Source of the DNA: an uncultured Schlesneria sp.
GTDB taxonomy: Bacteria > Planctomycetota > Planctomycetia > Planctomycetales > Planctomycetaceae
NCBI GenBank assembly: GCA_903834925.1
Contig: CAILLA010000109.1
Location: 1-64,000, forward strand
DNA: 64,000 bases
Direction: 5' to 3'
The translations under genes and the position numbers were made by a program. Each line of letters begins with the position of its first letter. The first letter of the stretch is position 1. The notes under the pieces were generated by a model. The model was not told the origin of the DNA. It searched no databases and saw nothing but the letters and a program-made list of their open reading frames with translations. Below, piece after piece: positions 3,546 through 21,639 of the stretch.

Positions 3546-3842
3546 TCAGTATCCACGTGCCAATCTCTGGACCTCTTCATAATTAAGGAGGTCGAAAGGG
3601 GATTCCAGACATCCACCGCACAGATTTTGCGCATAGCCTTCTCGCGCGCATTTTTCGCAAATCCATTTCTTGCAGCAGCGAGTGATGATGATGTTTTGTG
3701 AGCCCTTGTAGACCGTCCGGCAGGAAACGCATGGCCACTCTTGGGCCGCAACGCGTTGATGACTGTCCCAAAGTTGCCTGCCGACCCATTTCAGTCCTTC
3801 AATACCAAGGTCAAACTGCCAATTTGCCATGCTTATCGCCAT
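3546..3842 (-). CDS. Small cysteine-rich zinc-finger protein
   Basis: This 98-residue protein has eight or more cysteines in a RING/PHD-like order: C-x2-C, then about eleven residues, C-C, x4, C-x2-C, x9, C-x2-C in residues about 37-80. That layout should bind two zinc ions. The N-terminal third is hydrophobic and Trp-rich, and the C-terminus is helical. No exact family is recognised. It lies downstream of, and in the same direction as, the zinc-ribbon/LRR genes of the sigma-factor locus, so it may be the last member of that minus-strand set. The ATG at 3842 is used; a second in-frame ATG four codons later is equally possible. Confidence 0.5.
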   Translation of the reverse strand: MAISMANWQFDLGIEGLKWVGRQLWDSHQRVAAQEWPCVSCRTVYKGSQNIIITRCCKKWICEKCAREGYAQNLCGGCLESPFDLLNYEEVQRLARGY

Positions 3843-4165
3843 TCCGACGGGGTTTTAGGGTATTGAAGTTTTCCAGCCGACTTATTATCTGATCGTCGTC
3901 TTAGGTAGACATTTCTTCAGATAAACTACCCGTTTATCCCCGTGATTATCTCGTTCCCAATTCTCAGATTGCCATCGAACTTGGTGGACGAAAGGAAGCA
4001 GAATCAATGAAAGCGTGATTCACACGCCCCAGGAGATTCAACCCTTGAATAATTACTATTTCGCATTCCCTCCCATTGAGATCCAACCTTGCCACAGATA
4101 CCCCTCGTATTTTTCATCGTCGTTGCGCGCAAACTGGCGATGCCTCCGCCGATATGCATAAATGT
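3843..4165. other. Intergenic region, nothing recognised
   Basis: AT-richer spacer between two minus-strand genes. It could hold a promoter for the small zinc-finger gene, but no clear -35/-10 pair, hairpin or ORF is evident. Confidence 0.35.
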
Positions 4166-4834
4166 TTACTCGCACTTAATAATGGCGTCTGGGAGTTGTT
4201 GTTTCAAATAGGACATGAACGCAACGATCTGGGGACTTGGTTTGTACATTCCCGCAACATCGAGTAAACCAGCTTTTTGCATTCCGAGATGAGGGAGTTT
4301 GATCAACTCAACGCCCCTAAGTCGGGCGAGCAATTTAAGCCCTTGCAGAGTGATCCTTCCCGAAAGCCACTCTTCCAATCGCAGGATTTTTAGTGACGAC
4401 AGTTTCGAAAGGTACATCAAGGTTTCATCGGTTAGATCGCGACAGTCGTTCAAACGCACTTCAACTAAATGTGGAAGCCGGTTGAGATCTTCGATGTGGC
4501 GGTCGCGCCAGTCCGGTCCCATGAGGAAAACTGACTTGGTCACATCCGAACATTCCGCGAAAACATCAGTCAGGTTCCCAGCATCAGTCAAATTCAGTTC
4601 GCCTTTTTTGGATAGATAAATTTTCGGAAACTTTTCCAGAAGTCGGTTAGTTATAGTTCTAAAACGAACTGCGTCATCGTCTTCCAATCGAGTTGGTGAA
4701 TTGGCGTGATGCACGGCACTTTGCCCTGTGTCATTTTTTGAAGGAGAGGAACCCACTGGTTCGCCACAGTGGGGACAGGAGGGCGCATTCGTCGAGATCT
4801 TTCCGCCGCATTCGGGGCATGCTATCAAAGCCAT
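4166..4834 (-). CDS. Zinc-ribbon protein with leucine-rich repeats
   Basis: The product (222 residues) starts with a short zinc ribbon, MALIACPECG then CPHCGEPV, i.e. C-x2-C and C-x2-C-G pairs within residues 6-26. After a polar linker comes a region of leucine-rich-repeat character: 'LPHLVEVRLNDCRDLTDETLMYLSKLSSLKILRL' in pieces, typical of the cysteine-containing LRR type. The start was moved 13 codons inward from the first ATG because the MAL-x-CP beginning is shared with paralogues at 9185, 10033, 10817 and 16642. It is likely a protein-binding scaffold recruited through its ribbon. It follows the related gene at 4976-5614 on the same strand. No catalytic motif is seen. Confidence 0.7.
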   Translation of the reverse strand: MALIACPECGGKISTNAPSCPHCGEPVGSSPSKNDTGQSAVHHANSPTRLEDDDAVRFRTITNRLLEKFPKIYLSKKGELNLTDAGNLTDVFAECSDVTKSVFLMGPDWRDRHIEDLNRLPHLVEVRLNDCRDLTDETLMYLSKLSSLKILRLEEWLSGRITLQGLKLLARLRGVELIKLPHLGMQKAGLLDVAGMYKPSPQIVAFMSYLKQQLPDAIIKCE

Positions 4835-4975
4835 TGTTTTATCCTTGATTCCAGGCAATCCAATTTGGAACACAATTCTTTCCAGTGAATGCTACATTTG
4901 CATCGTCCGAAATTCCAAACCTCATCTGCGTTCTCGCATTTTAAGCCGACGAAGTCCTTGCAATCTCTGGAACCG

Positions 4976-5614
4976 CTACGGGATCACGGTGTTTGGCAGT
5001 TGCCGTCTCAGTTTTGTTCTGACTTCGTTGGTCTCAACGTAGTTCATTCCGCGACCATCTCCACAGTAATCCGGAACGCGGAGGAATTCTAAACTGCGTA
5101 ACTTCGCTAGCTGAAGCCATCCATGGCTCGTTGCTCGTCCCATATTGCACACCATATCTAAATTGCGAAGTCCAGACATTTTGCTGATTTCGAGCAGCGC
5201 TTCGTCGTCCAAAGTCACAGTGGATGCTTTAATGGACTTAAGTAATTGCATGCGGCGGAAGAGCCGTACATCAGAACGGCTGACGTCTTTTTGAGCGTAG
5301 ACAATAAGTTCTTCAAGCCATCCTCCGGCGACATCTGCAAGGTCGTATAATGCGGAAAGATCGAATACCATGATGCTGGTTTCCGGGTAGTCGGGAGAAC
5401 TGTTTGCAGGAGTTAAAGAAAAGCAGGGCTCATTCCCATATGTGCGGTTGATGCTTTCCAATGCGGCATCATGCGTTTCCCTGGTAATCGACACACCGGA
5501 TGTTGGCCCATCAGTCTGCGGGATGCTGCGTATTGGCCCTCCGCATTTCGGACAGGCTTCGGCTTGATCGTAAACTGGGTGGTGTTGACAGTGTTGGCAA
5601 GTAGTCAAACCCAT
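4976..5614 (-). CDS. Zinc-ribbon protein with leucine-rich-like repeats
   Basis: A 212-residue paralogue of its neighbour. Residues 1-29 form the zinc ribbon (CQHC and CPKCGGPI, with the shared HHPVYDQAEACP spacing). The middle is a variable linker, and residues about 110-200 contain leucine-rich segments such as LRLFRRMQLLKSIKAS and MSGLRNLDMV, again of LRR type. No enzyme signature is visible. Its ribbon is closest to those of the proteins at 10817 and 16642 on the other side of the locus, which implies duplication within the locus. It probably belongs to a minus-strand transcript starting upstream of 6235. Confidence 0.7.
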   Translation of the reverse strand: MGLTTCQHCQHHPVYDQAEACPKCGGPIRSIPQTDGPTSGVSITRETHDAALESINRTYGNEPCFSLTPANSSPDYPETSIMVFDLSALYDLADVAGGWLEELIVYAQKDVSRSDVRLFRRMQLLKSIKASTVTLDDEALLEISKMSGLRNLDMVCNMGRATSHGWLQLAKLRSLEFLRVPDYCGDGRGMNYVETNEVRTKLRRQLPNTVIP

Positions 5615-5687
5615 GAAAAGAACTCCCGGAAGTGGATGCAGTCGGAACTCTGGAAATCAAAAATGATCACTCGCATTAGGTGGCGAG

Positions 5688-5882
5688 TCAAATTGAGGGT
5701 CGAGCGACTCCGGGAAGCGGATGTTCGTTGTGTCGCAGGCGATCATCGATCGCACCGAGAGGGCTTCCCCATACATCCATCGGCGAATTAAAGAAAACGT
5801 CGGTCGGATAATGGGTCCCGAACACGTCGTGAGGTTGATTACCGAAAACATCCAGTTTGTTTGGGTCGCCGAAGGTACTCAT
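5688..5882 (-). CDS. Small protein with repeated DVFG-type motifs
   Basis: A 64-residue protein with a convincing ribosome binding site (AAAGGAG, six bases before the ATG). Its sequence contains four spaced copies of a D-V-[FW]-[GF] motif (LDVFG, HDVFG, TDVFF, MDVWG) about eight to eleven residues apart, separated by N, P, H and Q-rich spacers. It has no signal peptide or membrane segment. The regular spacing suggests a repetitive binding peptide or a substrate rather than an enzyme. It follows the 96-residue gene at 5945-6235 by about 60 bp and precedes the zinc-ribbon/LRR gene. Function unknown. Confidence 0.6.
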   Translation of the reverse strand: MSTFGDPNKLDVFGNQPHDVFGTHYPTDVFFNSPMDVWGSPLGAIDDRLRHNEHPLPGVARPSI

Positions 5883-5944
5883 TCTCGTGCTCCTTTTTTC
5901 AAGGACGAATTCGCAAACGAATGATCGAGATGCTGGAATTGATC

Positions 5945-6235
5945 CTAAATCGTAACCAGCGCGCCTTCAAGTTGCTCCGCTCCGATTCCATGATCGTCTC
6001 GTTTCCGGGGCAAACGGCGATTGAGGATTATGGAAGGCTCAACAGAGTTGGGCGCGGAACGGAATGCTGATGGCCGCACTGAGATTTTAGGAACGTGTCC
6101 CGCCCCGATCGCTTCTACAATCGCGTCGAGGTACGCTTGCATTGGGTCCGCGCTTGCGAGAAGACCGAAATTGACGTCTTCTTCGGCCTCGGCTCGAAAG
6201 CGATCGGCAAGGTTTGTGAGTGGTTTGGGAGCCAT
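5945..6235 (-). CDS. Small helical protein, first gene of the minus-strand set
   Basis: A 96-residue protein supported by a near-perfect Shine-Dalgarno AAGGAGG seven bases before the ATG. The N-terminal 45 residues (MAPKPLTNLADRFRAEAEED then a helical stretch) look like an amphipathic helical or leader-like region, with the C-terminal half basic and Pro/Arg rich. No family is recognised. It is divergent from the ECF sigma gene, with about 250 bp between, so the two may be controlled from a shared region. Together with the DVFG-repeat protein downstream, it could be a substrate or partner of the C39-like peptidase coded at 7994-9058; that is speculation. Confidence 0.6.
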   Translation of the reverse strand: MAPKPLTNLADRFRAEAEEDVNFGLLASADPMQAYLDAIVEAIGAGHVPKISVRPSAFRSAPNSVEPSIILNRRLPRKRDDHGIGAEQLEGALVTI

Positions 6236-6486
6236 TTGGACGCCTCCTTCTTTGTGGTATTTTGGATTGGCTGTTCCCCGTTTCTAATGCCTTGACGCAA
6301 CTCGAAAGATGCGCGTTACAGCCCGACTCCAAAAAACCATCAATTTCCGCGAATTGGTTGCATGAGGAAGTCGTGCGGAACATACTTCTTGCTTGGGTCT
6401 GCACACGCAATTGCACGCGATTGTTCGGCGACACGGGGAAGCGTTGTCTGACCAAAAGGCAAATTTCGTGTGAACGATGAGTTGAA
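6236..6486. promoter_or_regulatory. Divergent promoter region of the sigma-factor locus
   Basis: This 250-bp spacer separates the minus-strand small-protein/zinc-ribbon genes from the plus-strand ECF sigma operon, so promoters for both must lie in or near it. ECF factors usually activate their own promoter. I cannot assign -35/-10 elements with confidence. Confidence 0.45.
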
Positions 6487-7116
6487 ATGTCAGCCAATCC
6501 ACAAGCCGCCGCGTCGATACCTGAAGCCGACGTTGCGACGTTGTCCGACTCGGAACTGATTCAACTCATTTGCCAAGGGAGTAACCAAGCTCTATTGCAC
6601 CTCATCGTTGACCGATGCGGTGGCGTCATTCGTAGCGTTGCCAAAGCATATCGGTACGACGGCGACCTGTTGCAAGAAATTTTCGTTCTTTTGCTTGGCG
6701 AGCGAGGGGATTGGGCAAAATTAAGTACATTTCAGGGGACTTCCGCGATCGAGGGGTGGCTGAGACGCGTCGCTCAGCGGATTTGTCTCACGCAATACCG
6801 AGAAAAAAAGAAACATCGTGAGCGGTTCACGCGTCTTCCTGATGAAGGGGATCAAATACCTGCGTCGACAAATTGGTCTTTGATGTGCGGCTTGGACCAG
6901 GAAGAGACGCGAACGCAGCTACTTCGATCAATTGATGAACTGGAAGATCGTGATCGCGCAATCATCTTACTTCACTGTCTTGGCGATCCGCAAAAAACAT
7001 CCGGCGAGATGATGGCGCTGCTTCAGATTTCAGCCGGAGCATTCCGGACCGCAAAATTGCGAGCAATTGAACGACTTGGTGAGATTTTAAAAAAGGAGGG
7101 GAATGATCATGTTTGA
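6487..7116 (+). CDS. ECF-type RNA polymerase sigma factor
   Basis: The 209-residue product has the two-domain plan of ECF sigma factors: region 2 at residues about 25-100 (with DLLQEIFVLLLGERGDWAKL and the FQGTSAIEGWLRRVAQRI helix) and region 4 at about 140-205 (ELEDRDRAIILLHCLGD followed by a helix-turn-helix). It directs RNA polymerase to a small set of promoters. The next gene codes a zinc-binding anti-sigma-like protein, overlapping by a few bases, the normal arrangement for a sigma/anti-sigma pair. Planctomycetes encode many such factors. Likely targets are the zinc-ribbon, GTPase and peptidase genes around it. The long acidic N-terminus before region 2 is slightly unusual. Confidence 0.85.
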   Translation: MSANPQAAASIPEADVATLSDSELIQLICQGSNQALLHLIVDRCGGVIRSVAKAYRYDGDLLQEIFVLLLGERGDWAKLSTFQGTSAIEGWLRRVAQRICLTQYREKKKHRERFTRLPDEGDQIPASTNWSLMCGLDQEETRTQLLRSIDELEDRDRAIILLHCLGDPQKTSGEMMALLQISAGAFRTAKLRAIERLGEILKKEGNDHV

Positions 7117-7942
7117 TCATCAAGAGATGCACCCCTCGAACGACAGAATCCTCGACTTCGCAGAAGGGCTTTTAGCGAATGCTCGGGATATCGAGTCCCA
7201 CATCGACCATTGTGATGAATGTGCTGAAGCAGTCCTGATCGCTCGACGACTCCATTGCCTTGTTCAGCAAAACTTGATTCCACCGCTAAACGCAGACGAG
7301 CGTAAGCAGGAAAAAGATCGCTTGCGCCGATTGCTTCAACCAGAAATTCAAGGCGAGAGTGTGCGTCGAAATCCAAGGTCGCCGGATTCGGCGATTTGGG
7401 CTTCCTTGGGAGCAATTGGCGGCACATTGGGTCTCGGCGGCGGCATCACGGGGCCAAAGCCCATGCTAGCTGGAACGGAAGGACCAATCACGCACCCAGG
7501 CACAACTCCCCACAAGACGGAGGACGGCACTAAAAGTTCTGATGGCCACCATTCGGCGGGGCATGGAAATTCTGAGAATTCCGAACATTCGCCTGTAACA
7601 AATGCCGACGATCTTCCGTCATCCCATCAGAAGCGGTCGGAGAATAACCACGACGAAGTTTCTGAGCTTCTGGATCAGATGCAAGAGTTATTAGATCCCC
7701 CAGATTCCAAACATCCAATTGTGAATGAGCATGACGATATGTTATCCACACCAGGCCACGTCGAGCACCATGATGATTCGACGCACGATGATTTCACGGA
7801 CCATGATGCGATGGATGCTGGTGGCGATCATGTTGCCGACGTTTCGACTTCGTTCGATGACGCAACTTATGGTGATACGCATCATGACCATGATGATGGA
7901 AGCGGGTTGTCAGATCACACACACGACGGGTTTGATAAGTGA
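7109..7942 (+). CDS. Anti-sigma-like protein with zinc finger and Asp/His-rich tail
   Basis: The start chosen is the ATG nine bases after GGAGG; an ATG two codons upstream also fits. Residues about 31-38 read H-x3-C-x2-C (HIDHCDEC), the ZAS zinc site of anti-sigma factors that bind ECF sigma. A short Gly-rich hydrophobic segment at about residues 90-115 (AIWASLGAIGGTLGLGGG) may be a weak membrane or packing segment. The remaining 160 residues are extremely rich in Asp, His, Gly and Ser, probably disordered and able to bind metal. The start overlaps the end of the sigma gene by 8 bp, so they are co-translated. A metal or stress signal sensed by the tail is a reasonable guess only. Confidence 0.65.
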   Translation: MFDHQEMHPSNDRILDFAEGLLANARDIESHIDHCDECAEAVLIARRLHCLVQQNLIPPLNADERKQEKDRLRRLLQPEIQGESVRRNPRSPDSAIWASLGAIGGTLGLGGGITGPKPMLAGTEGPITHPGTTPHKTEDGTKSSDGHHSAGHGNSENSEHSPVTNADDLPSSHQKRSENNHDEVSELLDQMQELLDPPDSKHPIVNEHDDMLSTPGHVEHHDDSTHDDFTDHDAMDAGGDHVADVSTSFDDATYGDTHHDHDDGSGLSDHTHDGFDK

Positions 7943-7993
7943 AAGTTCCAACCGCCGTAACCGCCCCTCATTCGAGAATTGTGGAGAAAACGA

Positions 7994-9058
7994 ATGGTAA
8001 TTCCTGGAATTCAGGATTTTTATGATGGAATGAACCATCTTGTTGCTCATGAGATGGAGCAGGCGAATCAAGACATGCATCCATCGAACAATTCTGGCGA
8101 TCATTCACATCACGATTCCCATCCGCAGACGAATACTGATGAAACTCACACGAACGTCAGTCGAGAACATGAAATGGGGGCGCACCATTCGACGAAGGAC
8201 TATCCCGATGATCATCAGACGACGATTCAGTCTTTCATTTCTCCGATCGCGCATGGCGTCGCTTCGGCCGTCTTGAGCTGGGCAGCCGAGGGGGTCATGG
8301 ACTGTGCGCTCTCAAAGGCCATGCTGGTGGATTCTGATTCTCATCATCAAGGGACCACGCCCCTGAGTGTGGGGACGCCTAGCGGAGATGGATTCACTCA
8401 TCAGACAACTGGGTTCACCTGTGCTGTCGTGTCGCAGAAAATGATTCTGGATCAGTTTCATCTGACTGATCCCCAAACAGGCGAACCGCTCTCGGAAGCT
8501 CGGCTGGTCTATGATGCCACCGCCAACGGCTGGCTATCCGATCACGGGACGAGTATGGGCAATTTGAGCAAGTTGCTCGATCACTATGGCGTCTCCAGCC
8601 ATGAAGGACACGACTGGCCACATCTGATCCATGACCTCGCCGAAGGCCATCAGGTCGTCATGGCGGTCAACGCAGACGGTCTGTGGAATGAACACAGTCC
8701 GTTTTCCGACTTGATGAATCTTTTTGGAAACTCGGCAAATCACGCAATTGTCGTCAAAGGTCTCAAAGTTAACGATCATGGAAAAGTCATGGTCATTGTC
8801 AACGACCCTGGTCAGGCTGACGGTGCTGGCGTTGAGTATCCGCTCGAACATTTCCAATCTGCGATCGACTCCACGCATATGCATTACGTTGCCACTGATC
8901 ACACCCCATCGGATTGGTCTCCCGGACCTGCGATCCAGTCACTGCTAACCGAACATGGATTCAGCCAACAGCCCGACGACAATCCTCATCCATGTTTTGC
9001 CGAGACGATCTCGATGATGAGCGACCAGGATCGGGACACGTTTTTACGGGACCTTTGA
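7994..9058 (+). CDS. C39-like papain-fold cysteine peptidase with His/Asp-rich N-terminus
   Basis: The product (354 residues from the ATG at 7994, preceded by GGAG at a good distance) has two parts. Residues 1-80 are His/Asp/Ser/Thr-rich like the tail of the anti-sigma protein just upstream; residues about 80-105 are hydrophobic helical. Residues about 138-295 form a peptidase_C39-like domain: a catalytic Cys in TGFTCAVVSQ (about C143), His in NHAIVVKGL (about H250) and Asp in VNDPG (about D271). Such domains cut double-glycine-type leaders or other peptides. No ABC transporter is fused or adjacent, so it is not a classical bacteriocin exporter. Substrates could be nearby small proteins or the anti-sigma protein; neither is shown. 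Confidence 0.65.
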   Translation: MVIPGIQDFYDGMNHLVAHEMEQANQDMHPSNNSGDHSHHDSHPQTNTDETHTNVSREHEMGAHHSTKDYPDDHQTTIQSFISPIAHGVASAVLSWAAEGVMDCALSKAMLVDSDSHHQGTTPLSVGTPSGDGFTHQTTGFTCAVVSQKMILDQFHLTDPQTGEPLSEARLVYDATANGWLSDHGTSMGNLSKLLDHYGVSSHEGHDWPHLIHDLAEGHQVVMAVNADGLWNEHSPFSDLMNLFGNSANHAIVVKGLKVNDHGKVMVIVNDPGQADGAGVEYPLEHFQSAIDSTHMHYVATDHTPSDWSPGPAIQSLLTEHGFSQQPDDNPHPCFAETISMMSDQDRDTFLRDL

Positions 9059-9184
9059 ATGAATCGTTACACGCTAAAAAGTCGTTTTCAATGAATCAAT
9101 CGGAGAAAAGGTACCCACACTCGAACTAATTCGCCTGCTATCTGCCACGTGCAGTAACCAATCGAATTCCGAAAGGCTATACCG

Positions 9185-9736
9185 ATGGCGCTAATAACAT
9201 GCCCAGAACCACAATGTGCAAAGCCAGTCTCTTCCCTTGCCGAAGCCTGCCCTCACTGCGGCGCTCCAATCCGAGTTGCGGGGAATGGGCCGGTTGCTCA
9301 GTCTCTATCGCCTCGCCCTACGGGTTATCCAGTAGATCAAAAAGAACGGTTAATCGATGCCCCTTCTGTGCGAAGTGAGCCACCAGCGACAATTCCACTC
9401 CGCGTTAGATTACATGTTAGCCGCCTCGTTGCAATGGAGCCTACCGGCAACGACACTGTGGCGGTCGAAGTGGATGGAATGCTGATAGGGATACTGAAGG
9501 GTACGCTCGGTGAGACGAGTGACCCGGTATCTGTGGCTCTCGGCCGTCATATCATTAAGCTGACAGTGAATCGCAAAGAGCGAGGTCGCGGCAGAACAGT
9601 ACTCGAACATCGCATGCAGTTGGATATCGTCAAACAGATCGAAAATGTTTTAGTAAGGGCGAGGATTGATCAATATGGCGGTCTCGAAGAGTTCTCGATC
9701 TCTCCGGAGCGAGCTGGGATGGTGCGAAGCCTTTGA
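9185..9736 (+). CDS. Zinc-ribbon protein with beta-rich PEGA-like domain
   Basis: A 183-residue protein. The N-terminal 30 residues are the locus-wide zinc ribbon (CPEPQC ... CPHCGAPI), with one extra residue in the first knuckle. After a proline/serine linker, residues about 75-150 read as a beta-sandwich of PEGA type: 'VAVEVDGMLIGILKGT' and 'SVALGRHIIKLTVNRK', the repeated xVxG / G-x-H-x-I-x-V pattern. PEGA-like domains usually bind surfaces or present other domains. The protein is probably cytoplasmic since no signal peptide is present. The start has AAAGG eight bases upstream. It begins the right-hand run of ribbon proteins after the peptidase. Confidence 0.6.
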   Translation: MALITCPEPQCAKPVSSLAEACPHCGAPIRVAGNGPVAQSLSPRPTGYPVDQKERLIDAPSVRSEPPATIPLRVRLHVSRLVAMEPTGNDTVAVEVDGMLIGILKGTLGETSDPVSVALGRHIIKLTVNRKERGRGRTVLEHRMQLDIVKQIENVLVRARIDQYGGLEEFSISPERAGMVRSL

Positions 9737-10032
9737 GCCAGAGAATAATTGTAGAAGTTGCAATTCCATGGCGGTGCTGAAAGCACAACCCCCGTGGCGA
9801 AACTCGTCACTTGCACAGAGGTGCAACGGCTTCTCACTGGCTGCGACGCCCAGCAGTCCTCATCGGAATCGATTTACGAGCGGTTTCCCGTTGCCTTCAT
9901 CGGCCGTCCCAGCGACTTCGATCAGAGCTTGGGCGACCTGACGCTACCAACGCTGATCGCCGACATCCAAGATCAAAACAACCATCGCTAGTCTTGAAAT
10001 TGTCCTCAATGATTCTGAGAGAGAGGTTTGGA
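9737..10032. other. Spacer before ribbon gene
   Basis: About 300 bp with an open frame that reads through into the next gene, but the codons before 10033 do not give a recognisable protein. It may be a decayed gene: a 77-codon alternative frame (9758-9991) has plausible composition but no known family. Confidence 0.3.
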
Positions 10033-10737
10033 ATGGCATTACTGACATGTCCAGAGTGTGACGGTAAGGTGTCTTCCTTTGCGGACAAGTGTCCGCATTG
10101 TGGTTATCCATTTCAAGAGGCAACAACTGGATCAACGGTTACTGAAACGCGCCAGTCAGAAATAACAGTCCCGCAAATGACTGCAGAGGAGTCTGTTAAT
10201 CACCGTTTGAAAACCTTGAATGCGTTTGTTGACAATTGTGTGCTGAATTTTGACGATCTCTCCATTCCGAATATCCATCAAATTATCGACACATGCAGGA
10301 ATGAGTTTGTTACGGGAGCAATCACCGGGCTACACATTTCTGGTCGTCAGTGGCAGGACAAAGACGTTGAAATTCTCGTTGACTCACTTCTTCCAGAACA
10401 AAGGGGCAAGCCATCGCGTCGCGAAAGGCAATACGCTGCCCAATTGCTTCCAGCTTTAATCACTCTGACCGTTTCGCAATGCCCAAAGATGGGTTATTTC
10501 GGGCTTTGCAACCTTTCAAGGTTGGATAGCCTGAACACAATCGATCTAAAAGACTTCGCACTTCAACCCACCGGTGAGATTTCGTCTGGTGAAGTTAGCA
10601 CATGTGCCACGTTCGTTGAACTTTCGAATTTGCGTTCCATTGTTCTTCCTATTGCGGCTAACCGCAACAACCCCGCCACGTTCGAGTCCGCCAAACACTG
10701 GTTTCAGGAGAAGCATCCAAACGCGACGGTCCGTTAG
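10033..10737 (+). CDS. Zinc-ribbon protein with leucine-rich-like region
   Basis: The reading frame opens much earlier (about 9811), but the protein almost certainly begins at the ATG at 10033, giving MALLTCPECDG and the shared zinc ribbon (C-x2-C, CPHCGYPF) with GAGAGAGG-like bases upstream. The remaining 200 residues contain leucine-rich segments: 'LPALITLTVSQCPKMGYFGLCNLSRLDSLNTIDLKD', broken over residues about 140-180, and a C-terminal helix. It is the same layout as the minus-strand ribbon/LRR proteins at 4166 and 4976. Likely a scaffold; no catalytic residues recognised. Confidence 0.7.
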   Translation: MALLTCPECDGKVSSFADKCPHCGYPFQEATTGSTVTETRQSEITVPQMTAEESVNHRLKTLNAFVDNCVLNFDDLSIPNIHQIIDTCRNEFVTGAITGLHISGRQWQDKDVEILVDSLLPEQRGKPSRRERQYAAQLLPALITLTVSQCPKMGYFGLCNLSRLDSLNTIDLKDFALQPTGEISSGEVSTCATFVELSNLRSIVLPIAANRNNPATFESAKHWFQEKHPNATVR

Positions 10738-10816
10738 GGCCGAAGTTGGCGCTGTAAGCGTCGGTAATCAATGGCTCATTTTGTAATCGGTTTTAGACAA
10801 CTGGAATAACAATCAT

Positions 10817-11608
10817 ATGGCAATCATCACTTGTCCCGACTGCGGCCATCATCCTGTTTCTGATCGAGCACCGACTTGCCCGAAGTGCGGGTGTCCGATC
10901 GCGGCACCAATCATGGAAGCACAAGTTGTCGGAACGACACACGTGTCGAACCCTGTGTCGAGTGGGGACCATGCCATTGCGGTTTTGAAATCAATCGTCA
11001 AAGAGGCTCAAACCTCGTTTCTAACTCCTTCGCAGGCAAAGGGCGTTGCCATTCGAATTTCTGAGGAGAAGCGACGATGTTTCCCCGATCCTGAATCCTT
11101 CATTCGAGCATCCATCGCGTCTGGTTCATTAATCCTGGGTGATGAGGACGTTTCAGTAATATCACGGTTGAGCGACGAGCAAAAGGCCACAGTGAAGTCG
11201 TTTGTCGCACTGTCGTGTGCTCAACTGGATAACGCACTTGCAGCGCACCTGAAGGGCTTCAAGGATCTGGAGCTTCTTGATGTCTCGTACTGTAACGGGC
11301 TTTCAAGCGACGGGTTCGCAGATTGCAAGTTTCCGTCGACTGTCGCGTCCCTCGATCTTCTTGAAGTGTGTTATCTCAGGTCATGTCGTCGGCTTGACAG
11401 CCCTGGAATAAATATTGCGTTTCGGCAAGCACGAAACATTTCCGAAGTTTATCTCGACGGCAATGCGCAGCTTAACATCGGAGCTACGTTTTTTGTCAAA
11501 CACTGTCCGTCGCTGCGCGTTCTCTCGGTGTCGAACTGTACGCTGGGTGACCCCGCAATGTTGAATACTGTTCGCGGTTACAATCCGCAGTTGAAGATTA
11601 TCCTGTAA
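10817..11608 (+). CDS. Zinc-ribbon protein with leucine-rich repeats
   Basis: A 263-residue protein. Residues 1-32 are the zinc ribbon, with the HHPVSDRAPTCPKCGCPI form nearly identical to that of the Sel1-repeat protein at 16642 and the LRR protein at 4976. From about residue 130 the sequence falls into leucine-rich repeats with the pattern LxxLxxLDVSYCNGLSSDGF, LxxLEVCYLRSCRRL and LRVLSVSNCTL, the cysteine-containing LRR subfamily. It is in the same direction as, and 130 bp upstream of, the dynamin-like pair. LRR domains bind proteins; here the binding partner may be one of the GTPases or the Hsp70-like protein, which is an inference from order alone. Confidence 0.75.
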   Translation: MAIITCPDCGHHPVSDRAPTCPKCGCPIAAPIMEAQVVGTTHVSNPVSSGDHAIAVLKSIVKEAQTSFLTPSQAKGVAIRISEEKRRCFPDPESFIRASIASGSLILGDEDVSVISRLSDEQKATVKSFVALSCAQLDNALAAHLKGFKDLELLDVSYCNGLSSDGFADCKFPSTVASLDLLEVCYLRSCRRLDSPGINIAFRQARNISEVYLDGNAQLNIGATFFVKHCPSLRVLSVSNCTLGDPAMLNTVRGYNPQLKIIL

Positions 11609-11738
11609 CAGACATTAACAACATGAGCCGCCGCGAGTATATCGAGCATAAGATGATTGATTAAGGCGGAATCGACTTCTAAGTAAACAGGTTCTTACGC
11701 GTTCGAATAGCTCTTCAAGACGACTTGGAACTTGACAA

Positions 11739-13697
11739 ATGGAAAACGCTGGCGCTTCATCTACTGCTGGAACGCAACTGAAACAACGGCTGATCGACGT
11801 TGCAAAGTCACACCTGTCGCTTTCACCCGATGGCGAGCAAAAAAACGAGCGACAAAGGCGTCTTGCTCCGTTGCTGGATGCTCTTTCATCCAACATGTTC
11901 CGTCTCGTTGTCATGGGTGAAGTCAAGAAGGGAAAAAGCAGCTTTATCAATGCGTTCCTGGGTGAGCAGGATCTTTTACCGCCTGCGACGAATGTCGCGA
12001 CCTCGACTGTCTACAAGGTTGTCTACGGGCCAAAAGAGCGAATCACGGTATTTTTTCTATCCGACGACGATGATCCGGACAAGGCGCCGCCGCCAATCGA
12101 GATCGGTCGTCATCGGCTCCCAGAATTTGGGACCGAAGAGGGAAACCCAAGCAACGTGAGACAGGTGGAATTCATTTCCGTCGAATTGCCGAATCCGTTG
12201 CTGGCGGAGGGAGTCGTCATCGTCGATACGCCAGGCGTCGGCGGATTGTTCAAGAAGCATCGCGACATTACGTTTCGATATGCCCCCAATGCGGATGTCG
12301 TCTTCTTTATCCTCGATTCCGTCGAAGCCGTGATCAGCGCCGACGAAATTCAGTTTCTCAAGGAACTACGCAAGAACACGCAGCGAATCCTTTTTTTGCA
12401 AACGAAGACCGACCTCGCAGACATCGAGCAGGTTCTAGCATGGAAGAAACGGAATCTGGAAGTGATCTCAAAAGCGCTAGAAGTCGACGTCGATCGAATT
12501 CCATATTTTCTTGTGAGCGCGAAACAGAAGCAGCGAGCGGATCGGCTTCAAAACTCCGAGTGCCTCCAGGAAAGCGGATACATCGAGCTTTTGAAATACC
12601 TTCGTGAGAATCTGATTCCGGCTCGCGACGAAATCCTGACATGCCGGTGGTTACCGACTTTGGGGCCGGAACTTCTCGCTGCGGGGAAGCTTGTCGCCGA
12701 TCGTTTGAATATTGCTCGAAGTGCTCACCCACTCAAACTTGCAGAATATGAATCGCAACTGAGCAGCGCCGAACGGGAGTACGATCGATGGCAAAGCGAG
12801 GTCTGGCCGGGACAGTATCGTACGTTCCTGGATGATGTGGCGAGATTAAAACGGGACTCAGACAAACAAATCCACGATCAGGTCTCACCGGATCATCCGG
12901 ATTGCCGAGCCAGCGTCAGATTGCTCGAAGCCAATTCTCGAACGGCAGACGAAGCCAATGCGATGGCCGACCAATTGCTGGACGAGTGGGCCGAAAGGTG
13001 GAGAAGCAATACAAGCTCCATTCTGTACCATTTTCAAAAGAGTTATTTGGCGATTTCCGAAAACCTGATGGGGCGGATCGCCAGCGAGATGAAGACGATC
13101 GCGTTGCCAGAATTCGATGTCGAGGTCGCGGAACGGCGGGTCGAGAAAGAAGATCGACCGAGAGTCATCCAGGAGGCCGTGATGACGTCCAACATATTCA
13201 GCGGCATGGCAGCCGAAGCTGCGAAATACCTCGGGATTGGGGCAAGTGTGGCTGCGTACTTTGGAATCGTTTCCAACCCGGTGGGATGGGCCATTGGCGC
13301 AGCTGCTGGTGTTGGCTACGTGGCGACTCGTATTTGGGCCGCAAAACGCGGGTTCGATGTGGCTCGTGAACGGCAACGCGACGCTGCAATTGCCAGTTTC
13401 GAGCGCGCTCTGGTGAAGACGGGAAGCACAGCGGAACGGAGTGCGATCCGCGTTCTGCAGGAACTGGCGGGGGAACTCGACTCGGCGTCGAGAGCCAAAG
13501 CGGATGGATTTCGCCTTAGTACCAAATATGAATTCACTGCGCGTCGCGACGAAATCCTGAAGAGCAAAACCCGAACGGTTGAGGAAGCGAAAGCTGCTGA
13601 GAATCGATTGAAAGAGCAACTCGGTCGTTACCAGGAACTGCTGAAGCAATATCAGGAGATCAAGGTCCAGTTGGACCCGGAGGTCAAACCCGCATGA
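11739..13697 (+). CDS. Dynamin-family GTPase, first of an overlapping pair
   Basis: The 652-residue product has a full GTPase domain: G1 GEVKKGKS at 60-67, G3 DTPG near 163-166, G4 TKTD near 222-225. A long helical middle and C-terminal region follows. A hydrophobic stretch at about residues 500-545 (AAKYLGIGASVAAYFGIVSNPVGWAIGAA, interrupted) probably inserts in or dips into membrane, as in bacterial dynamin-like proteins that remodel membranes. The end is a charged coiled coil. Its last codons overlap the start of the second GTPase gene by 4 bp (ATGA), so they are co-translated and likely act as a heteromeric pair, the usual bacterial dynamin arrangement. Dynamin pairs occur in membrane-repair and phage-defence settings. 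Confidence 0.85.
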   Translation: MENAGASSTAGTQLKQRLIDVAKSHLSLSPDGEQKNERQRRLAPLLDALSSNMFRLVVMGEVKKGKSSFINAFLGEQDLLPPATNVATSTVYKVVYGPKERITVFFLSDDDDPDKAPPPIEIGRHRLPEFGTEEGNPSNVRQVEFISVELPNPLLAEGVVIVDTPGVGGLFKKHRDITFRYAPNADVVFFILDSVEAVISADEIQFLKELRKNTQRILFLQTKTDLADIEQVLAWKKRNLEVISKALEVDVDRIPYFLVSAKQKQRADRLQNSECLQESGYIELLKYLRENLIPARDEILTCRWLPTLGPELLAAGKLVADRLNIARSAHPLKLAEYESQLSSAEREYDRWQSEVWPGQYRTFLDDVARLKRDSDKQIHDQVSPDHPDCRASVRLLEANSRTADEANAMADQLLDEWAERWRSNTSSILYHFQKSYLAISENLMGRIASEMKTIALPEFDVEVAERRVEKEDRPRVIQEAVMTSNIFSGMAAEAAKYLGIGASVAAYFGIVSNPVGWAIGAAAGVGYVATRIWAAKRGFDVARERQRDAAIASFERALVKTGSTAERSAIRVLQELAGELDSASRAKADGFRLSTKYEFTARRDEILKSKTRTVEEAKAAENRLKEQLGRYQELLKQYQEIKVQLDPEVKPA

Positions 13698-15379
13698 CAT
13701 CCTTGTTGGACCTCGACGCCCTGCACATTCAACTTCGGCAGTTCGCGGAAAAAACACCAGAGATTCTGAGGCGAGTGAAACTGACCGACGAACTCGCTGG
13801 GGAAGTCGAGCGATCGATGGCGATTGCCGATGCACCCTTCACATTGGCGGTTGTCGGACAGATGCGTGTCGGCAAGTCGACGCTGATCAACGCGCTCGTG
13901 GGTGCCGAACTGGCGATCCCCGGTGTCACGGAAACAACGGCTACGGTGAACTGGTTCCGGCATGGTACCCCGGAACAAGAGGGGAAATTCCGCGTCGTCT
14001 GGAACGATCTGGCGGGGACAAGCGATGAATTTGATCTTTCGAAGAAGAATGAATGGCTTGGCAATTCCGAGTTGGCCGCGAAGACTCGTTTCCTGGAGTT
14101 TTACAGTACGGCGGAATTCCTGAAGAGAGTCCACATCGTCGACACGCCGGGATCGCGATCCACGATCAGTTCGCACGAGGAAGCGGCGCGCGGCTTTTGG
14201 CTTTCGGAACGAAAGGCGGAGCGTGATTCGCTCTTTTATGGTGGAGTCGCCGACTGCATCGTCTATACTTTACCCCCCGTGCCGCATCAAAATGACAGCG
14301 ACCTACTTGGGATGTTCACTTCCCAGCGACGACTGCTTCAATCCACGCCATACAATAGCGTCGGCGTCTTGCATAAATGGGAGACACTCGATCATTCGAC
14401 TCCTTGGCAAGTCGCAGTGGATCACGCGCGACAGGCGTTTGGATTTCTGAAGTCGTATTTGTGCGACATCATTCCGGTGAGTGGTCCGCTCGCACAGGTC
14501 AGTCAGCGTTGTCCGGATGAGTTTTGGAACAAGTTATTGGCGTTTGTGAAGGACTCCAGCGGCGATACGCTGGGAGAATTGATGAGTAGCCCATCCTCCT
14601 TCGCTAGCCCAAAAAGGGCCTGTCCTCTAAGCCCCGAGGAACGATCGCAGCTTCGATCGACCGCCGGAATCGCGTGGCCTTGTTTCAGAGCGATTCTATT
14701 GATTGCCGCGTCGCGCTCGTTCGCCGATGGTGAGGAACTGCGAAAAACGGTCCGGGAAATCTCGGGAATCGACCGATTCATGTCTTTCCTCGAAGAGCGT
14801 TTTTTCAATCGATCTCGCCTGATCAGGGCGTCGAACGTTCTCAACCGGACACTTCGCGTGACGGAACTGGGACGAGGGCGCTTGCGGAATCGGCTGAAGG
14901 ATCTGGCCAACGATCGGGAAATGGGGCGGCAGGCCCTTGCGGAGTTCGCATCATCGACAACGTTTCCCAAAGCCCGCGAGTTCATCAACAGCCACCTCGT
15001 TCAAACACAACACGAGAGTGATCGAGTGACTGAAGTGCTTCGTGATTTGGAACTGCAAGCCGGTTCCGTCCGAGACGGTTTCGAGCACTTTGAAAAGGAT
15101 TGTCGGGCCGTCCAGTGCCTGGATGACCATCCAGATCAGTTTGAGGCGAATGAAGCCGTTGAGATCCTGACTTTACTTGGTGGATATGGCACAGGCCTTC
15201 TCGAACGGCTCGGCGTCAACGATGCGGAATGCCTATTGGATTCGCTCCACGACCGATTGGATCACTGGATCGTAGAAAAGCACAAAGCAACTCGCGAACG
15301 ACGACAGGTTCTCGACCAGGTTGTTACGAGATTAGAAGAAGCTCTGAGGCAAGTGATTCGAGAACAGGACGCACGTTGA
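13694..15379 (+). CDS. Dynamin-family GTPase, second of the pair
   Basis: A 561-residue GTPase with G1 GQMRVGKS at about 55-62 and G3 DTPG at about 150-153; the usual G4 N/TKxD is degenerate, reading HKWE in a corresponding place, so nucleotide specificity or activity may differ from the first GTPase. The C-terminal half is helical with a coiled-coil character. No transmembrane segment is clear, so this may be the soluble partner of the membrane-active first protein. The start overlaps the upstream gene by 4 bp. The end lies 15 bp before the Hsp70-like gene, showing an operon of GTPase, GTPase, Hsp70-like. Confidence 0.8.
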   Translation: MTSLLDLDALHIQLRQFAEKTPEILRRVKLTDELAGEVERSMAIADAPFTLAVVGQMRVGKSTLINALVGAELAIPGVTETTATVNWFRHGTPEQEGKFRVVWNDLAGTSDEFDLSKKNEWLGNSELAAKTRFLEFYSTAEFLKRVHIVDTPGSRSTISSHEEAARGFWLSERKAERDSLFYGGVADCIVYTLPPVPHQNDSDLLGMFTSQRRLLQSTPYNSVGVLHKWETLDHSTPWQVAVDHARQAFGFLKSYLCDIIPVSGPLAQVSQRCPDEFWNKLLAFVKDSSGDTLGELMSSPSSFASPKRACPLSPEERSQLRSTAGIAWPCFRAILLIAASRSFADGEELRKTVREISGIDRFMSFLEERFFNRSRLIRASNVLNRTLRVTELGRGRLRNRLKDLANDREMGRQALAEFASSTTFPKAREFINSHLVQTQHESDRVTEVLRDLELQAGSVRDGFEHFEKDCRAVQCLDDHPDQFEANEAVEILTLLGGYGTGLLERLGVNDAECLLDSLHDRLDHWIVEKHKATRERRQVLDQVVTRLEEALRQVIREQDAR

Positions 15380-15394
15380 AACGATCGGAACGCA

Positions 15395-16606
15395 ATGGCG
15401 ACGGTGGCAATTGATTTTGGAACATTACGAACGAAACTTGCCGTTTACGACCGACGTAAGCGTCAGACAGTCGTGCGGGCCGATGTTCCGACCTTAGTCT
15501 ACGTGCCACGTTCCGGATCGATCCTTGTTGGGGAACCTGCTCAAAAGGCAATTGCAGACGATCCAACCGGCATGATCGACGATCTCAAGAAACGGATGGG
15601 CGGGGATGTTTTTCTACGAAGCCGACGCGCGTGCAAGCCAGTTGAATTGATCTCGTTGCTATTCGGTGAGGCGCGAGGCATCGCACTTGAACAACAACAC
15701 GCTCTCGATCCGCTGACTGACTGCATCCTGACAATCCCATTACATCTCGATCTTCGACATGGCGAGCTGTTGTGCGAAGCTGCTCGACAGGCTGGATTTA
15801 CGAGTGTCAGCTTAATCTTTGAACCAGTTGCAGCAAGTCGTTCATGGGAACGAAATCAGCCTATTCCCGGGAACTTTCTGGTGGTCTGTGATATTGGCTA
15901 CACCGCTCGTATTTCTGTATTGCGACGACCAGCGAATGATTGGCAGCCCGATCTGGAAATCCTTCCAACGCCAGTACTTTGTCGGCCAGATTCGTCATTG
16001 CCGTCACTTTTGTTCGACAGTCTTCGAAGTGTGTCGTCCGAAATATCAAGGAGTGGCATGGTCAATCCACCGTTGCTGGTCGTTGGCGGTGGCGCGATCG
16101 CAAAGGAAACTGCGGCAATATTGAAACAAGAAGGCTGGCCAGGTGAAGTCTTGCTGCCGAACGGCCCTGATGTTTCCATGGTACTTGGAGCGATCGACGT
16201 CACTGCTGCACCTCACGAGACAGCTGAAGCAACAACCTGTCCCGAACCAGAGTGTTCCTTTTTCCCGATTCCAAAGAACTTAATGGCTTGTCCGATCTGT
16301 GGATGTCCCATGAAAACATCACCAAAGACGGGAGGAGCGATACGAAGTTCAATCGCAGCCACTACACGTGCCCAGTTCAGCGGAACGCTGAAATGCCCGG
16401 AATGCATGACCGAGGCTCCACGAGGATCGGCTACTTGCAAGAAATGTGGTTTCCCGTTTAATCGACAAGGATCACGTCCCAGCGAACCTGTGATCCCCGT
16501 GTCGAATCCGATAGCCGAAATAATAAATTGTCCGGAGTGCGGGGACAAACTTCCCCAAAATGCTGTCACATGTCGGAACTGCGGCTTTCCACTTAAATCT
16601 CTGTAA
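15395..16606 (+). CDS. Hsp70-like ATPase fused to three zinc ribbons
   Basis: A 403-residue protein. Residues 1-270 are an actin/Hsp70 nucleotide-binding fold: phosphate 1 IDFGT (6-10), the connecting LTIPLHLDLRHGELL and IFEPVAA segments, phosphate 2 DIGYT (166-170) and the adenosine loop VVGGGAIA (229-236). It is shorter than DnaK's about 380-residue NBD, and the substrate-binding domain is absent. Instead, residues 280-403 hold three zinc ribbons: CPEPEC/CPICGCPM, CPECMT/CKKCGFPF and CPECGD/CRNCGFPL. The swap of a peptide-binding domain for ribbons suggests the ATPase works on, or with, ribbon-tagged partners. Coded 15 bp after the second dynamin-like gene; co-transcribed. Confidence 0.8.
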   Translation: MATVAIDFGTLRTKLAVYDRRKRQTVVRADVPTLVYVPRSGSILVGEPAQKAIADDPTGMIDDLKKRMGGDVFLRSRRACKPVELISLLFGEARGIALEQQHALDPLTDCILTIPLHLDLRHGELLCEAARQAGFTSVSLIFEPVAASRSWERNQPIPGNFLVVCDIGYTARISVLRRPANDWQPDLEILPTPVLCRPDSSLPSLLFDSLRSVSSEISRSGMVNPPLLVVGGGAIAKETAAILKQEGWPGEVLLPNGPDVSMVLGAIDVTAAPHETAEATTCPEPECSFFPIPKNLMACPICGCPMKTSPKTGGAIRSSIAATTRAQFSGTLKCPECMTEAPRGSATCKKCGFPFNRQGSRPSEPVIPVSNPIAEIINCPECGDKLPQNAVTCRNCGFPLKSL

Positions 16607-16641
16607 TAAGATCGCGACTTCCTCTCAAGGAGACTTTTCAA

Positions 16642-17601
16642 ATGGCTCTCATCACTTGCCCGGCCTGCAGCCATCATCCAGTTTCTGACCAGGCTGATGC
16701 GTGTCCGAAGTGTGGACACCCGATTGCTGCCGCCATCTCGTCTGGCAAAAGTGCGAACATCCAAGCTGATATGGAAGAAGAATCTCGAAGTGCAAGTCCG
16801 ACACCCAAAGCACCAGCTCCACAGTTAGACGTTCAACAAATCATTGCCGAATTACTAAAGCTATCGCAACCAAACAAGTATATTCGCTCCATATATTGCA
16901 CGCTCTTAGGACACAGTCAGAGCGGGTACTGGACAGAGCTCGCAGCCCGTGGCGATGTCGATGCGAAGTTTCTTCTAGCCGTTACCGCCCAAGACGAAAA
17001 CAGCACTGAAACCGATCGTCTGATGCCGCTAGCACTTCAAGGTCACACCCTTTCGATGTGGCAAGTTGGATACGAACTGGCCAAGGAGTATTCGCTTCCG
17101 TCCTACCCTCGGGGAATCGAAATGCTAAAGAAAGCGGCACAAAGCGGCAATAAGGCAGCCATGTGCGATTACGCAATGTGCTTGGACTGCGCCCCAGAGG
17201 ACGAGCGCACTTACGACCGATTGAAGCAACAGAGAGATCAGATTTACGAATCACTGGCCCGCGAGGGATTCCCTCCTGCGATGGCACGCGTTGGTACGTT
17301 CATGGTGGAATTCCAACCATATGGTCTCCCTGAGCACAAAAAAGCTCGAATGATTCGGGATGGCATGCAGCTACTGATGAAGGCTGCCGAGGCAGGTAAC
17401 ATGCAGGCCGCCGACGAATTGGAGTCCCAATACAGAAGGGGCGGAAATGTTACGATGAGTGGCGTGGAGGCAAAGTTCTGGAAAGATCGCGCCCGCGAGT
17501 TGTCCGACCAAATTTGTAATTGCCCTGCGAATGCCTACGGAATCAAGAGCCTGTTGGACTCAGGTTGGATAACAGAAGGCGGTGCCACATTGATTTATTG
17601 A
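16642..17601 (+). CDS. Zinc-ribbon protein with Sel1-like repeats
   Basis: A 319-residue protein with AAGGAG nine bases before the ATG. Residues 1-30 are the shared zinc ribbon (CPACSHHPVSDQADACPKCGHPI in its two halves). After a Pro/Ser linker, residues about 100-290 carry Sel1/TPR-like alpha repeats: 'GHTLSMWQVGYELAKEYSLPSYPRGIEMLKKAAQSGNKAAM', then 'GFPPAMARVGTFM' and 'LLMKAAEAGNMQAADELE', each showing the A-x-x-x-G-x-x-x-A spacing. Sel1 repeats hold protein partners together. It follows the Hsp70-like gene by 35 bp in the same direction and is the likely last gene of this operon. Confidence 0.75.
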   Translation: MALITCPACSHHPVSDQADACPKCGHPIAAAISSGKSANIQADMEEESRSASPTPKAPAPQLDVQQIIAELLKLSQPNKYIRSIYCTLLGHSQSGYWTELAARGDVDAKFLLAVTAQDENSTETDRLMPLALQGHTLSMWQVGYELAKEYSLPSYPRGIEMLKKAAQSGNKAAMCDYAMCLDCAPEDERTYDRLKQQRDQIYESLAREGFPPAMARVGTFMVEFQPYGLPEHKKARMIRDGMQLLMKAAEAGNMQAADELESQYRRGGNVTMSGVEAKFWKDRARELSDQICNCPANAYGIKSLLDSGWITEGGATLIY

Positions 17602-19807: not shown

Positions 19808-19882
19808 GTAGCCAGGCTGATTCACGGGTAGTGGGGGAGTGGCAACGAATGCTACGCTGGGAAAAACTTCGTTGCAAATACC

Positions 19883-20791: not shown

Positions 20792-21112
20792 GGTGGCGAA
20801 CGCCAGGTACGATCGCCGGGTCGGTACGGCCATTCACCCGAGCCCCTCCACTGATGAAGTCGAGGAACGGCACCCGAGTGATGCGAGACACGGCGCACCG
20901 CCTCGCGAGATCCACGCACATCGGACGAGGCGGTTTTGCGTGCGTCAAAACCCTCGGCCACTGGCCTTGGAGATCCGCTACTCCACGAATACGTGAGATC
21001 GCACGGTTCCTTCTGTCAGAGCAATTCTGCTTTCGCAGGCGTATTTTCTTTCGCCCGATTCTCAGGCATTCTCGGCTCGGTCTGAGATTCATTCACACGA
21101 CAGGAGAATGCC
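20792..21112. other. Intergenic region upstream of small-ORF cluster
   Basis: About 320 bp without a convincing gene. It holds a short inverted repeat, GGTTTTG at 20932-20938 and CAAAACC at 20946-20952. The promoter of the small-ORF/coupling-protein transcript probably lies near its end, before an AGGAG at about 21101-21105. Confidence 0.35.
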
Positions 21113-21629: not shown

Positions 21630-21639
21630 CTTCAGACCG

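Follow-up and report, generated by a model that had tools for sequence, protein, structure and literature searches.

The locus described here lies at positions 3546 to 17601 of a 64,000-nucleotide stretch of DNA (the window) from an uncultured Schlesneria sp.; the contig that opens with these 64 kb, CAILLA010000109.1, belongs to a 9.0-Mb genome of 307 contigs. We found that its genes form a unit with a conserved core, a C39-like peptidase, bacterial dynamins and an Hsp70-type protein, often accompanied by an extracytoplasmic function (ECF) σ factor and its anti-σ factor. A single functional unit had already been suggested from the DNA letters alone (the sequence-only reading), and the recurrence of the core across phyla and plasmids bears this out. 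We favor the view, with a probability of about 0.5, that the locus represents, in planctomycete form, a membrane-stress system that is widespread and in part carried by plasmids, with a proposed peptidase switch and dynamin sealing. The positions previously given for the genes held, with corrections; the main genes are as follows.

6487..7116, + strand: ECF-type σ factor (NCBIfam sigma70-ECF 1e-10, just below the cut-off)
7103..7942, + strand: anti-σ factor, HxxxCxxC near the N-terminus; overlaps the ECF gene by 14 bp, same direction
7994..9058, + strand: C39-like papain-type cysteine peptidase, start at ATG 7994 or TTG 7979; His-rich N-terminus; Gln137, Cys143, His250, Asp271
11739..13697, + strand: Dyn1, IniA-type bacterial dynamin (Dynamin_N 1.4e-19; PDB BDLP 2j68 1e-16, IniA 6j72 7.5e-16)
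13694..15379, + strand: Dyn2, IniC-type bacterial dynamin (Dynamin_N 1.3e-12; 4-bp overlap with Dyn1)
15395..16606, + strand: Hsp70/actin-fold ATPase-like protein (Pfam 2.9e-4, below the cut-off; NCBIfam HscA 8.7e-6) with C-terminal zinc ribbons, three by eye

A genome scan with the C39 alignment alone yielded 44 loci from about eight phyla: Bacillota (14), Bacteroidota (12), Actinomycetota (8), Cyanobacteriota and Gammaproteobacteria (3 each), and Planctomycetota, Desulfobacterota and Victivallales (1 each), with 1 unassigned. Dynamin genes were present in 34 of these, Hsp70 in 25, both in 21, and a σ factor in 17; near-duplicates (L097-L099, L108/L126, and L112/L114) are counted separately in these tallies. 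Where at least 20 kb of sequence was available (25 loci), a dynamin is present in 24, Hsp70 in 17, both in 16, and one or the other in all 25; every locus with neither (L105, L113, L127, L130, L133, and L138) spans <12 kb. Because the hidden Markov models (HMMs) came from these same loci, we re-scanned 76 proteins with Pfam (1e-3), which recognized Dynamin_N in 34 of the 34 proteins offered, HSP70 in 25 of 25, and Sigma70_r4_2 in 14 of 17. A control set of solitary planctomycete dynamins (20 of the 29 loci outside the source genome, 4-19 kb each) contained no C39 and no σ gene (0/20 each) and Hsp70 once (1/20). The gene set in the window is thus not a chance assembly, since its core recurs elsewhere. 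After removal of L098, L099, L114, and L126, the distance matrices of C39, Dyn1, Dyn2, and Hsp70 correlated with one another (r = 0.64-0.97, n = 20-32; 0 of 1,000 permutations as high).

Searches with Dyn1, Dyn2, and Hsp70 covered 72,556 plasmid records. C39 occurs in 27 plasmid records, and all 27 also match Dyn2, with starts ≤10.1 kb apart (positions compared by hand); 12 of these, mostly closely related, are from Prescottella equi. Dyn2 was present in 37 records, including those 27. Among ten plasmid loci that we fetched, C39 was present in four (L085, L088, L091, and L094) and was not seen in the other six (L086, L087, L089, L090, L092, and L093). Rhodococcus plasmids carry a Dyn1-Dyn2-Hsp70 block together with a second block composed of an Asp-repeat protein, C39, hB, and σ, while the order on Anabaena pANA01 is a helix-turn-helix gene, Hsp70, four genes, C39, h5, Dyn1, and Dyn2. 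Family h5 (∼180 amino acids [aa]) lies mostly between C39 and Dyn1 (L095, 8308-8871, and 17 other loci); Pfam scans of two members and a PADLOC comparison of one gave no match.

Relatives of the locus among planctomycetes were found only by a 38-row C39 profile: single-sequence searches with Hsp70 in 58 relatives, with Dyn1 and C39 in 392 genomes of the phylum (own genome included), and with C39 in 14 congeners revealed no homologous locus, and a first genome scan with Dyn1 alone returned nothing. The profile matched 16 of 397 Planctomycetia genomes, 10 of them strongly, both counts including the source genome. We fetched loci from 13 of the 15 others, comprising all 9 strong (E <1e-50) and 4 of 6 weak matches. 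A dynamin gene lies beside C39 in 9/9 of the strong matches, several of which are on contigs of <8 kb, and in 0/4 of the weak ones; 4 of the 9 strong matches have Hsp70 and 1 has a σ factor. That one, L164, is also closest in gene order: a small divergent gene faces ECF-anti-σ-C39-Dyn1-Dyn2-Hsp70, followed by two more dynamins. Identity between the window and L164 is 51% over 236 aa for C39, 38% for each dynamin, 34.5% over 110 aa for the Hsp70-like gene, 27.5% over 109 aa for the ECF, and 22.8% over 136 aa (4.3e-5) for the anti-σ, whose L164 copy likewise has an acidic tail. The L164 Hsp70-like gene matches neither Pfam HSP70 nor any PDB entry and ends in a ribbon-like motif, the sole trace of zinc ribbons at a locus that lacks the ribbon scaffold proteins. 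The sequence-only reading had centered the locus on the ECF σ and the ribbon proteins; given that an ECF is optional (17/44) and that L164 does without ribbon proteins, the center is better placed at C39 with dynamins and Hsp70.

A Pfam scan of the window peptidase found no family match. It does match the C39 proteins of Anabaena sp. 90 (1.7e-22, phmmer) and Rhodococcus erythropolis (4.2e-11), and the label "C39-like," assigned earlier from the sequence, is supported because such homologues are C39 by Pfam (Peptidase_C39_2: Anabaena, 1.4e-5; L111, 7.6e-6) or by record annotation (R. erythropolis). Gln137, Cys143, His250, and Asp271, which we take to be the catalytic set of a papain-like peptidase, are the same in all 38 copies aligned; these are the window copy and, for 37 of the 44 loci, one copy per locus. 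Outside the alignment are seven loci, among them several near-duplicates or fragments, as well as the fused copy of L116 and the first of the two tandem copies in L097-L099. The C39 profile also matches PDB structures Alr0975 (3.4e-5) and 3erv (0.002). Tubeworm symbionts (L097, L098, and L099) have two C39 genes in tandem, the first of which, by eye, seems to lack the catalytic His.

What precedes or adjoins the peptidase domain varies. At 9 of the 44 loci the C39 protein itself contains DxDGDGxxD-type loops, which are typical of Ca2+ binding, in numbers from 2 to 52 per protein, and at 5 others (Rhodococcus/Prescottella) the loops are in a separate open reading frame (ORF) next to C39; two or more such loops occur in 6 of 1,143 other ORFs (≥150 aa), the Rhodococcus/Prescottella neighbors included. 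The count of 52 comes from a 1,279-aa C39 protein at L107 (7157-10996); the short C39 protein of L104 has five. At seven other loci (L111, L115, L116, L118, L120 of Desulfosarcina, L123, and L128), the C39 protein starts with an anti-σ-like domain and directly follows an ECF gene. The DNA fetched for the nine loop-bearing loci contains no σ gene, and the seven fused proteins lack loops; we infer from these sequence patterns that fused anti-σ domains and Ca2+-type loops may be interchangeable inputs to one switch.

The window ECF scores below the Pfam cut-offs (r2, 0.009; r4_2, 0.019) and clusters with the ECFs of 10 other C39 loci. It had been described as divergent from its anti-σ gene; the two are co-directional and overlapping, and the divergent part of the locus is the minus-strand set at 3546-6235. 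The HxxxCxxC motif of the adjacent anti-σ was recognized by eye, while a Pfam scan gave no zf-HC2 match; the tail of the protein (aa 121-279) is His/Asp rich (21 H, 28 D, 10 E, and 6 K+R). The zinc motif is retained in the fused anti-σ domains of L115 and L120 (Pfam zf-HC2, 0.017 and 8.8e-6). We built an HMM from the seven C39-fused N-termini and searched it against 4,083 sequences: the first matches beyond the seven training sequences were the post-ECF ORFs of L113 (6.9e-13), L121 (3e-9), and L117 (0.0019), with the window anti-σ ranked next. Together, the seven fusions and the matches in L113, L121, and L117 mean that all 10 non-actinobacterial σ loci have an anti-σ domain just after the ECF. 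Kinases joined to anti-σ-like N-termini are also present, at L120 and (N-terminus by eye) L163.

The overlapping dynamin pair reported from the sequence alone was confirmed by the Dynamin_N matches listed above. In a midpoint-rooted FastTree phylogeny of 100 dynamins, Dyn1 falls in the clade of Nocardia farcinica IniA (support, 0.876), a reference that itself matches PDB IniA 6j72 at 4e-167, and Dyn2 falls in that of the adjacent IniC-like gene (support, 0.998); the 19 control dynamins in the tree lie outside both clades. Dyn1 also matches the PADLOC model LeoBC at 1.4e-19, and Dyn2 matches LeoA less well, at 2.3e-4, with a best stretch of 63 residues.

The identification of the gene downstream of Dyn2 as an Hsp70-type ATPase with zinc ribbons stands in part: the ribbons and a partial ATPase domain with an intact phosphate-1 motif are present, but the phosphate-2 motif is degenerate and the Pfam match falls short of the cut-off. 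Of the Hsp70 model, the N-terminal part alone aligns, the C-terminus of the protein consists of ribbons, and no substrate-binding domain was recognized. The window Hsp70 matched 17 plasmid records, in which the gene is annotated as Hsp70 family or DnaK or has no annotation; a search of viral contigs found no relative of it. Chaperone partners occur elsewhere: a GrpE-like family is present in 8 C39 loci (Pfam 9.7e-14 on the one member tested), and at L158 a J-domain protein with a ribbon-like end adjoins C39.

Six window proteins, where five had been counted, carry an N-terminal zinc ribbon, in addition to the ribbons of the Hsp70 protein:

4166..4834, - strand: ribbon plus leucine-rich repeat (LRR)-like protein (Zn_ribbon_3 7.3e-6; LRR without Pfam support)
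4976..5614, - strand: ribbon plus LRR-like protein (Zn_ribbon_3 0.0053; LRR without Pfam support)
9185..9736, + strand: ribbon plus PEGA-like β domain, a label from the sequence-only reading (Zn_ribbon_3 9.9e-5)
10033..10737, + strand: ribbon plus LRR-like protein (UPF0547 7.7e-7; LRR without Pfam support)
10817..11608, + strand: ribbon plus LRR-like protein (Zn_ribbon_3 1.2e-5; LRR_6 0.0012, below the cut-off)
16642..17601, + strand: ribbon plus TPR/Sel1-like protein (Zn_ribbon_3 2.9e-6; TPR_27 7.8e-6, below the cut-off)

The labels LRR, PEGA, and Sel1 are weak, as no model for any of the three exceeds its Pfam cut-off. When the six are aligned, nearly all invariant columns are within the ribbon, and the last ribbon of the Hsp70 protein matches this N-terminal ribbon (hhalign, 92.6%). 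In the source genome the ribbon family has matches at this locus only (E up to 0.001); among 20 relatives, partial matches were seen in 5 (best, 1.6e-8). Within the system, the ribbon proteins form a layer that is local and variable. It had been proposed that co-occurrence of the dynamin pair, the Hsp70-ribbon protein, and a ribbon-LRR protein in unrelated genomes would support a unit: a dynamin pair, an Hsp70 with a ribbon-type motif, and a ribbon protein do occur together in Sunxiuqinia (L115), and L117 (Muribaculaceae) and L124 (Prevotella) come close, as several ribbon proteins accompany the pair and an Hsp70 there, but none of five ribbon proteins scanned (three from L115, one from L124, and one from L107) has an LRR match. 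At L117 and L124, a ribbon-bearing kinase-like protein and a PP2C-like protein (by eye) are also found, with ribbon proteins, within the C39-dynamin locus. BspA-type LRR proteins lie near C39 in four Bacillota loci (L108, L112, L119, and L122); that of L122 (9134-10063) matches Pfam LRR_5 at 4.4e-25 and has no ribbon.

On the plus strand the order is ECF, anti-σ, C39, three ribbon genes, Dyn1, Dyn2, Hsp70, and the ribbon-TPR gene, with intergenic distances of -14, 51, 126, 296, 79, 130, -4, 15, and 35 bp. The tight operon spacing claimed earlier therefore applies to ECF-anti-σ-C39 and to Dyn1-Dyn2-Hsp70-Sel1, but not to the three loosely spaced ribbon genes between them. The minus-strand set, divergent from the ECF gene, includes two of the ribbon genes and three smaller ORFs:

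5945..6235, - strand: small protein of 96 aa; its L164 homologue (blastp, 1.9e-6 over 43 aa) is placed the same way, divergent from the ECF gene
5688..5882, - strand: 64-aa ORF with DVFG-type repeats, a weak, bare ORF missing from the earlier list
3546..3842, - strand: peripheral 98-aa Cys-rich ORF, no significant family

Plasmid- or conjugation-like genes flank the locus (1175-2641 and 18602-23986), encoding Replic_Relax, a TrwB/TraG-type coupling protein, and a Toprim primase-like protein, plus a very weak RPA-like match; judging by these neighbors, the locus may reside on a mobile element or plasmid. An exact repeat of ≥14 bp, as expected were it integrated at a tRNA-Lys gene, was looked for in the window and none was found. 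Farther downstream (23941-49563) is a defense-type region containing a HEC-05-like protein (23941-25665), a DrmMI/type IIG methyltransferase-like protein, Schlafen AlbA_2, DpdE-like (1.8e-179) and DruE-like helicases, an IrrE-type metallopeptidase with a trypsin-like protein, HNH, and a weak AbiJ_NTD4; parts that resemble DISARM, Dpd, and Druantia are mixed here and may make up a system of their own.

Membrane damage response or defense, as inferred in the sequence-only reading, is still our best guess for the function of the locus. At rest, the anti-σ (7103) would hold the ECF (6487). The peptidase (7994) would be the switch, its N-terminus sensing a consequence of membrane breach, most likely an inflow of divalent cations; that segment is His/Asp rich in the window, has Ca2+-loop-like repeats in some relatives, and is an anti-σ domain in others. 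C39 would then cut or disarm the anti-σ, and the freed ECF would switch on the locus. The dynamin pair could assemble as a heteromer, as paired dynamins do (PMC6104087, excerpt), on the damaged inner membrane, and tether, cut off, or seal it, much as reported for IniA and Bacillus subtilis DynA. The Hsp70-ribbon protein and the six proteins sharing its ribbon might guide dynamin assembly and recycling; as a result, the cell would survive agents that damage the envelope, or lyse later when infected by phage. In lineages without a σ factor, the peptidase would act directly on a protein of the locus. A bolder version, which we hold tentatively, sees a new bacterial membrane-injury response in which a calpain-like unit, probably cytosolic, senses ions that leak in through the breach. 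The unit would be a papain-type peptidase whose chain also has Ca2+-binding-type loops or an anti-σ domain, and for sealing it would deploy dynamins together with an Hsp70 machine of their own, to which some lineages add GrpE or a J-protein; the system would have spread partly by plasmids through about eight phyla and would parallel the plasma membrane repair that calpains drive in animals.

Several observations weigh against this interpretation. Ten of the 44 C39 loci have no dynamin (L105, L106, L112, L113, L114, L122, L127, L130, L133, and L138), and of these L112 has full flanks; at eight others (L100, L107, L108, L109, L118, L119, L121, and L123) the dynamins fall outside the IniA/IniC clades. 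The distance-matrix correlations still contain species phylogeny. A σ switch cannot be universal, because 27 of the 44 loci and 8 of the 9 strong planctomycete relatives (all except L164) have no σ gene in the DNA examined. The window anti-σ resembles the fused domain weakly (HMM E, 0.015; hhalign, 60%), the L164 anti-σ is at noise level in the same search (0.2, with the first unrelated match at 0.29), and a Gly-rich stretch of the window protein (aa ∼97-117) might form a membrane segment. The window C39 has no Ca2+-type loops, and cleavage by C39, of the anti-σ or of any other protein, is a proposal drawn from sequence. Lastly, the window Hsp70 does not retrieve the Anabaena or Rhodococcus Hsp70s by tblastn and, given its degenerate phosphate-2 motif, may be no ATPase.

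The most serious competitor, possible though in our view doubtful, is a dedicated anti-phage system in which the peptidase would be a sensor or trigger for infection and the dynamins would stop lysis or bring about the death of the infected cell, a mode of action suggested for other dynamin and peptidase defense systems. Plasmid carriage and patchiness (a strong match in 10 of 397 genomes of the class, own included) would fit, as would the restriction, Schlafen, DpdE/DruE-like helicase, and AbiJ-like genes at 24-50 kb of the window and the resemblance of Dyn1 to LeoBC. So would matches at related loci: defense kinase models such as PD-T4-6 match the kinase part of the C39 protein at L120 and that of L117, the L117 Hsp70 matches PDC-M61B at 8.2e-8, and four related loci include genes for DO-GTPases, which belong to conflict systems (PMC7159879, excerpt). 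However, no PADLOC model matches the window C39 or Hsp70, nor the C39, h5, or Hsp70 of L095; searches of phage records and viral contigs found no C39 relative; ECF control fits a stress response; and IniA acts in drug tolerance (PMC6715688, excerpt).

The other alternatives appear less probable. C39 could be a binding or scaffold domain, with the anti-σ released without proteolysis: binding alone can be retained, since the tandem copy in L097-L099 seems to have lost its catalytic His, but Q, C, H, and D do not vary among the 38 aligned copies, a set that excludes those tandem copies, and we consider this reading unlikely. Planctomycetes have unusual membranes, and membrane remodeling during normal growth (vesicles, secretion, or internal membranes), with C39 maturing a component, might be imagined. 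LeoA has been linked to toxin release, potentially via vesicles (PMC4159319, excerpt), yet the locus is patchy, σ-associated in part of its lineages, and spread over many unrelated cell plans, so we consider remodeling quite improbable. Least probable is a peptide system in which C39 removes the leader from a small protein (the 96-aa or 64-aa ORF) to yield a toxin or signal. Classical C39 domains cleave double-glycine leaders, and the 96-aa ORF is conserved in L164; nevertheless, there is no ABC transporter match among the locus proteins scanned and no obvious double-glycine leader by eye, and in relatives C39 is fused to anti-σ or Asp-repeat regions.

Bacterial dynamins have mostly been described in pairs, and their triggers are unclear. 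The loci described here tie dynamins to a conserved peptidase, to a chaperone, and in several lineages also to a σ/anti-σ pair, and the dynamins so linked include the IniA/IniC families, to which the isoniazid-induced proteins of mycobacteria belong. The proposed membrane-stress system thus suggests, in testable form, what switches such dynamins on and which partners they have, and it makes the locus a candidate for membrane repair or anti-phage action that is present in cyanobacteria, in tubeworm symbionts, in Bacteroidota and Clostridia of the gut, and on Rhodococcus plasmids.

The combination had been put forward as a candidate undescribed system, and full-text literature searches, with most subscription papers outside their scope, gave no account of a system that joins C39, dynamins, and Hsp70. 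Bacteriocin-maturing C39 domains are fused to or beside an ABC transporter; no transporter matched among the window locus proteins scanned. Eleos/LeoABC systems share the paired dynamins, and their components match Dyn1 and Dyn2 as given above; we know of no peptidase, chaperone, or σ factor in these systems or with B. subtilis DynA. DynA is a bacterial dynamin that protects membranes, forms clusters, and delays phage lysis, and it is a single gene derived from the fusion of two, whereas the window has a separate pair (PMC8844932, excerpt). The DO-GTPase/GAP1 conflict systems with Hsp70 described by Kaur et al. (2020; PMC7159879) have zinc ribbons, Hsp70, and GTPase pairs in common with the window, and DO-GTPase-type genes lie inside the C39 loci of Anabaena, Dolichospermum, L111, and L125 (Pfam on the Anabaena genes only); neither DO-GTPase nor GAP1 matched any window locus protein scanned, and the words "dynamin" and "sigma factor" occur 0 times in the text of that paper.

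The mycobacterial and actinobacterial iniBAC genes are another parallel. Like the window they have a tandem dynamin pair, and the N. farcinica IniA and IniC-like gene group with Dyn1 and Dyn2, respectively; the pair is drug induced in mycobacteria, and IniA performs membrane fission, with a role in membrane repair suggested (PMC6715688, excerpt). Another resemblance is that the N. farcinica pair has an Hsp70-like gene on either side: its neighbors at L086 are a divergent Hsp70-like gene and a set that resembles dnaK and dnaJ (dnaJ by eye), which suggests that the Hsp70 link extends to iniBAC. The N. farcinica locus differs in that no C39 was found in the 18.7 kb fetched, whereas the window pair is tied to C39, ECF/anti-σ, an Hsp70-ribbon fusion, and ribbon proteins. 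For the σ branch, the idea of release by proteolysis is shared with RsiW/RseA-type anti-σs, whose proteolysis frees their ECF; here, the candidate protease is of the papain type and adjoins, or is fused to, the anti-σ itself.

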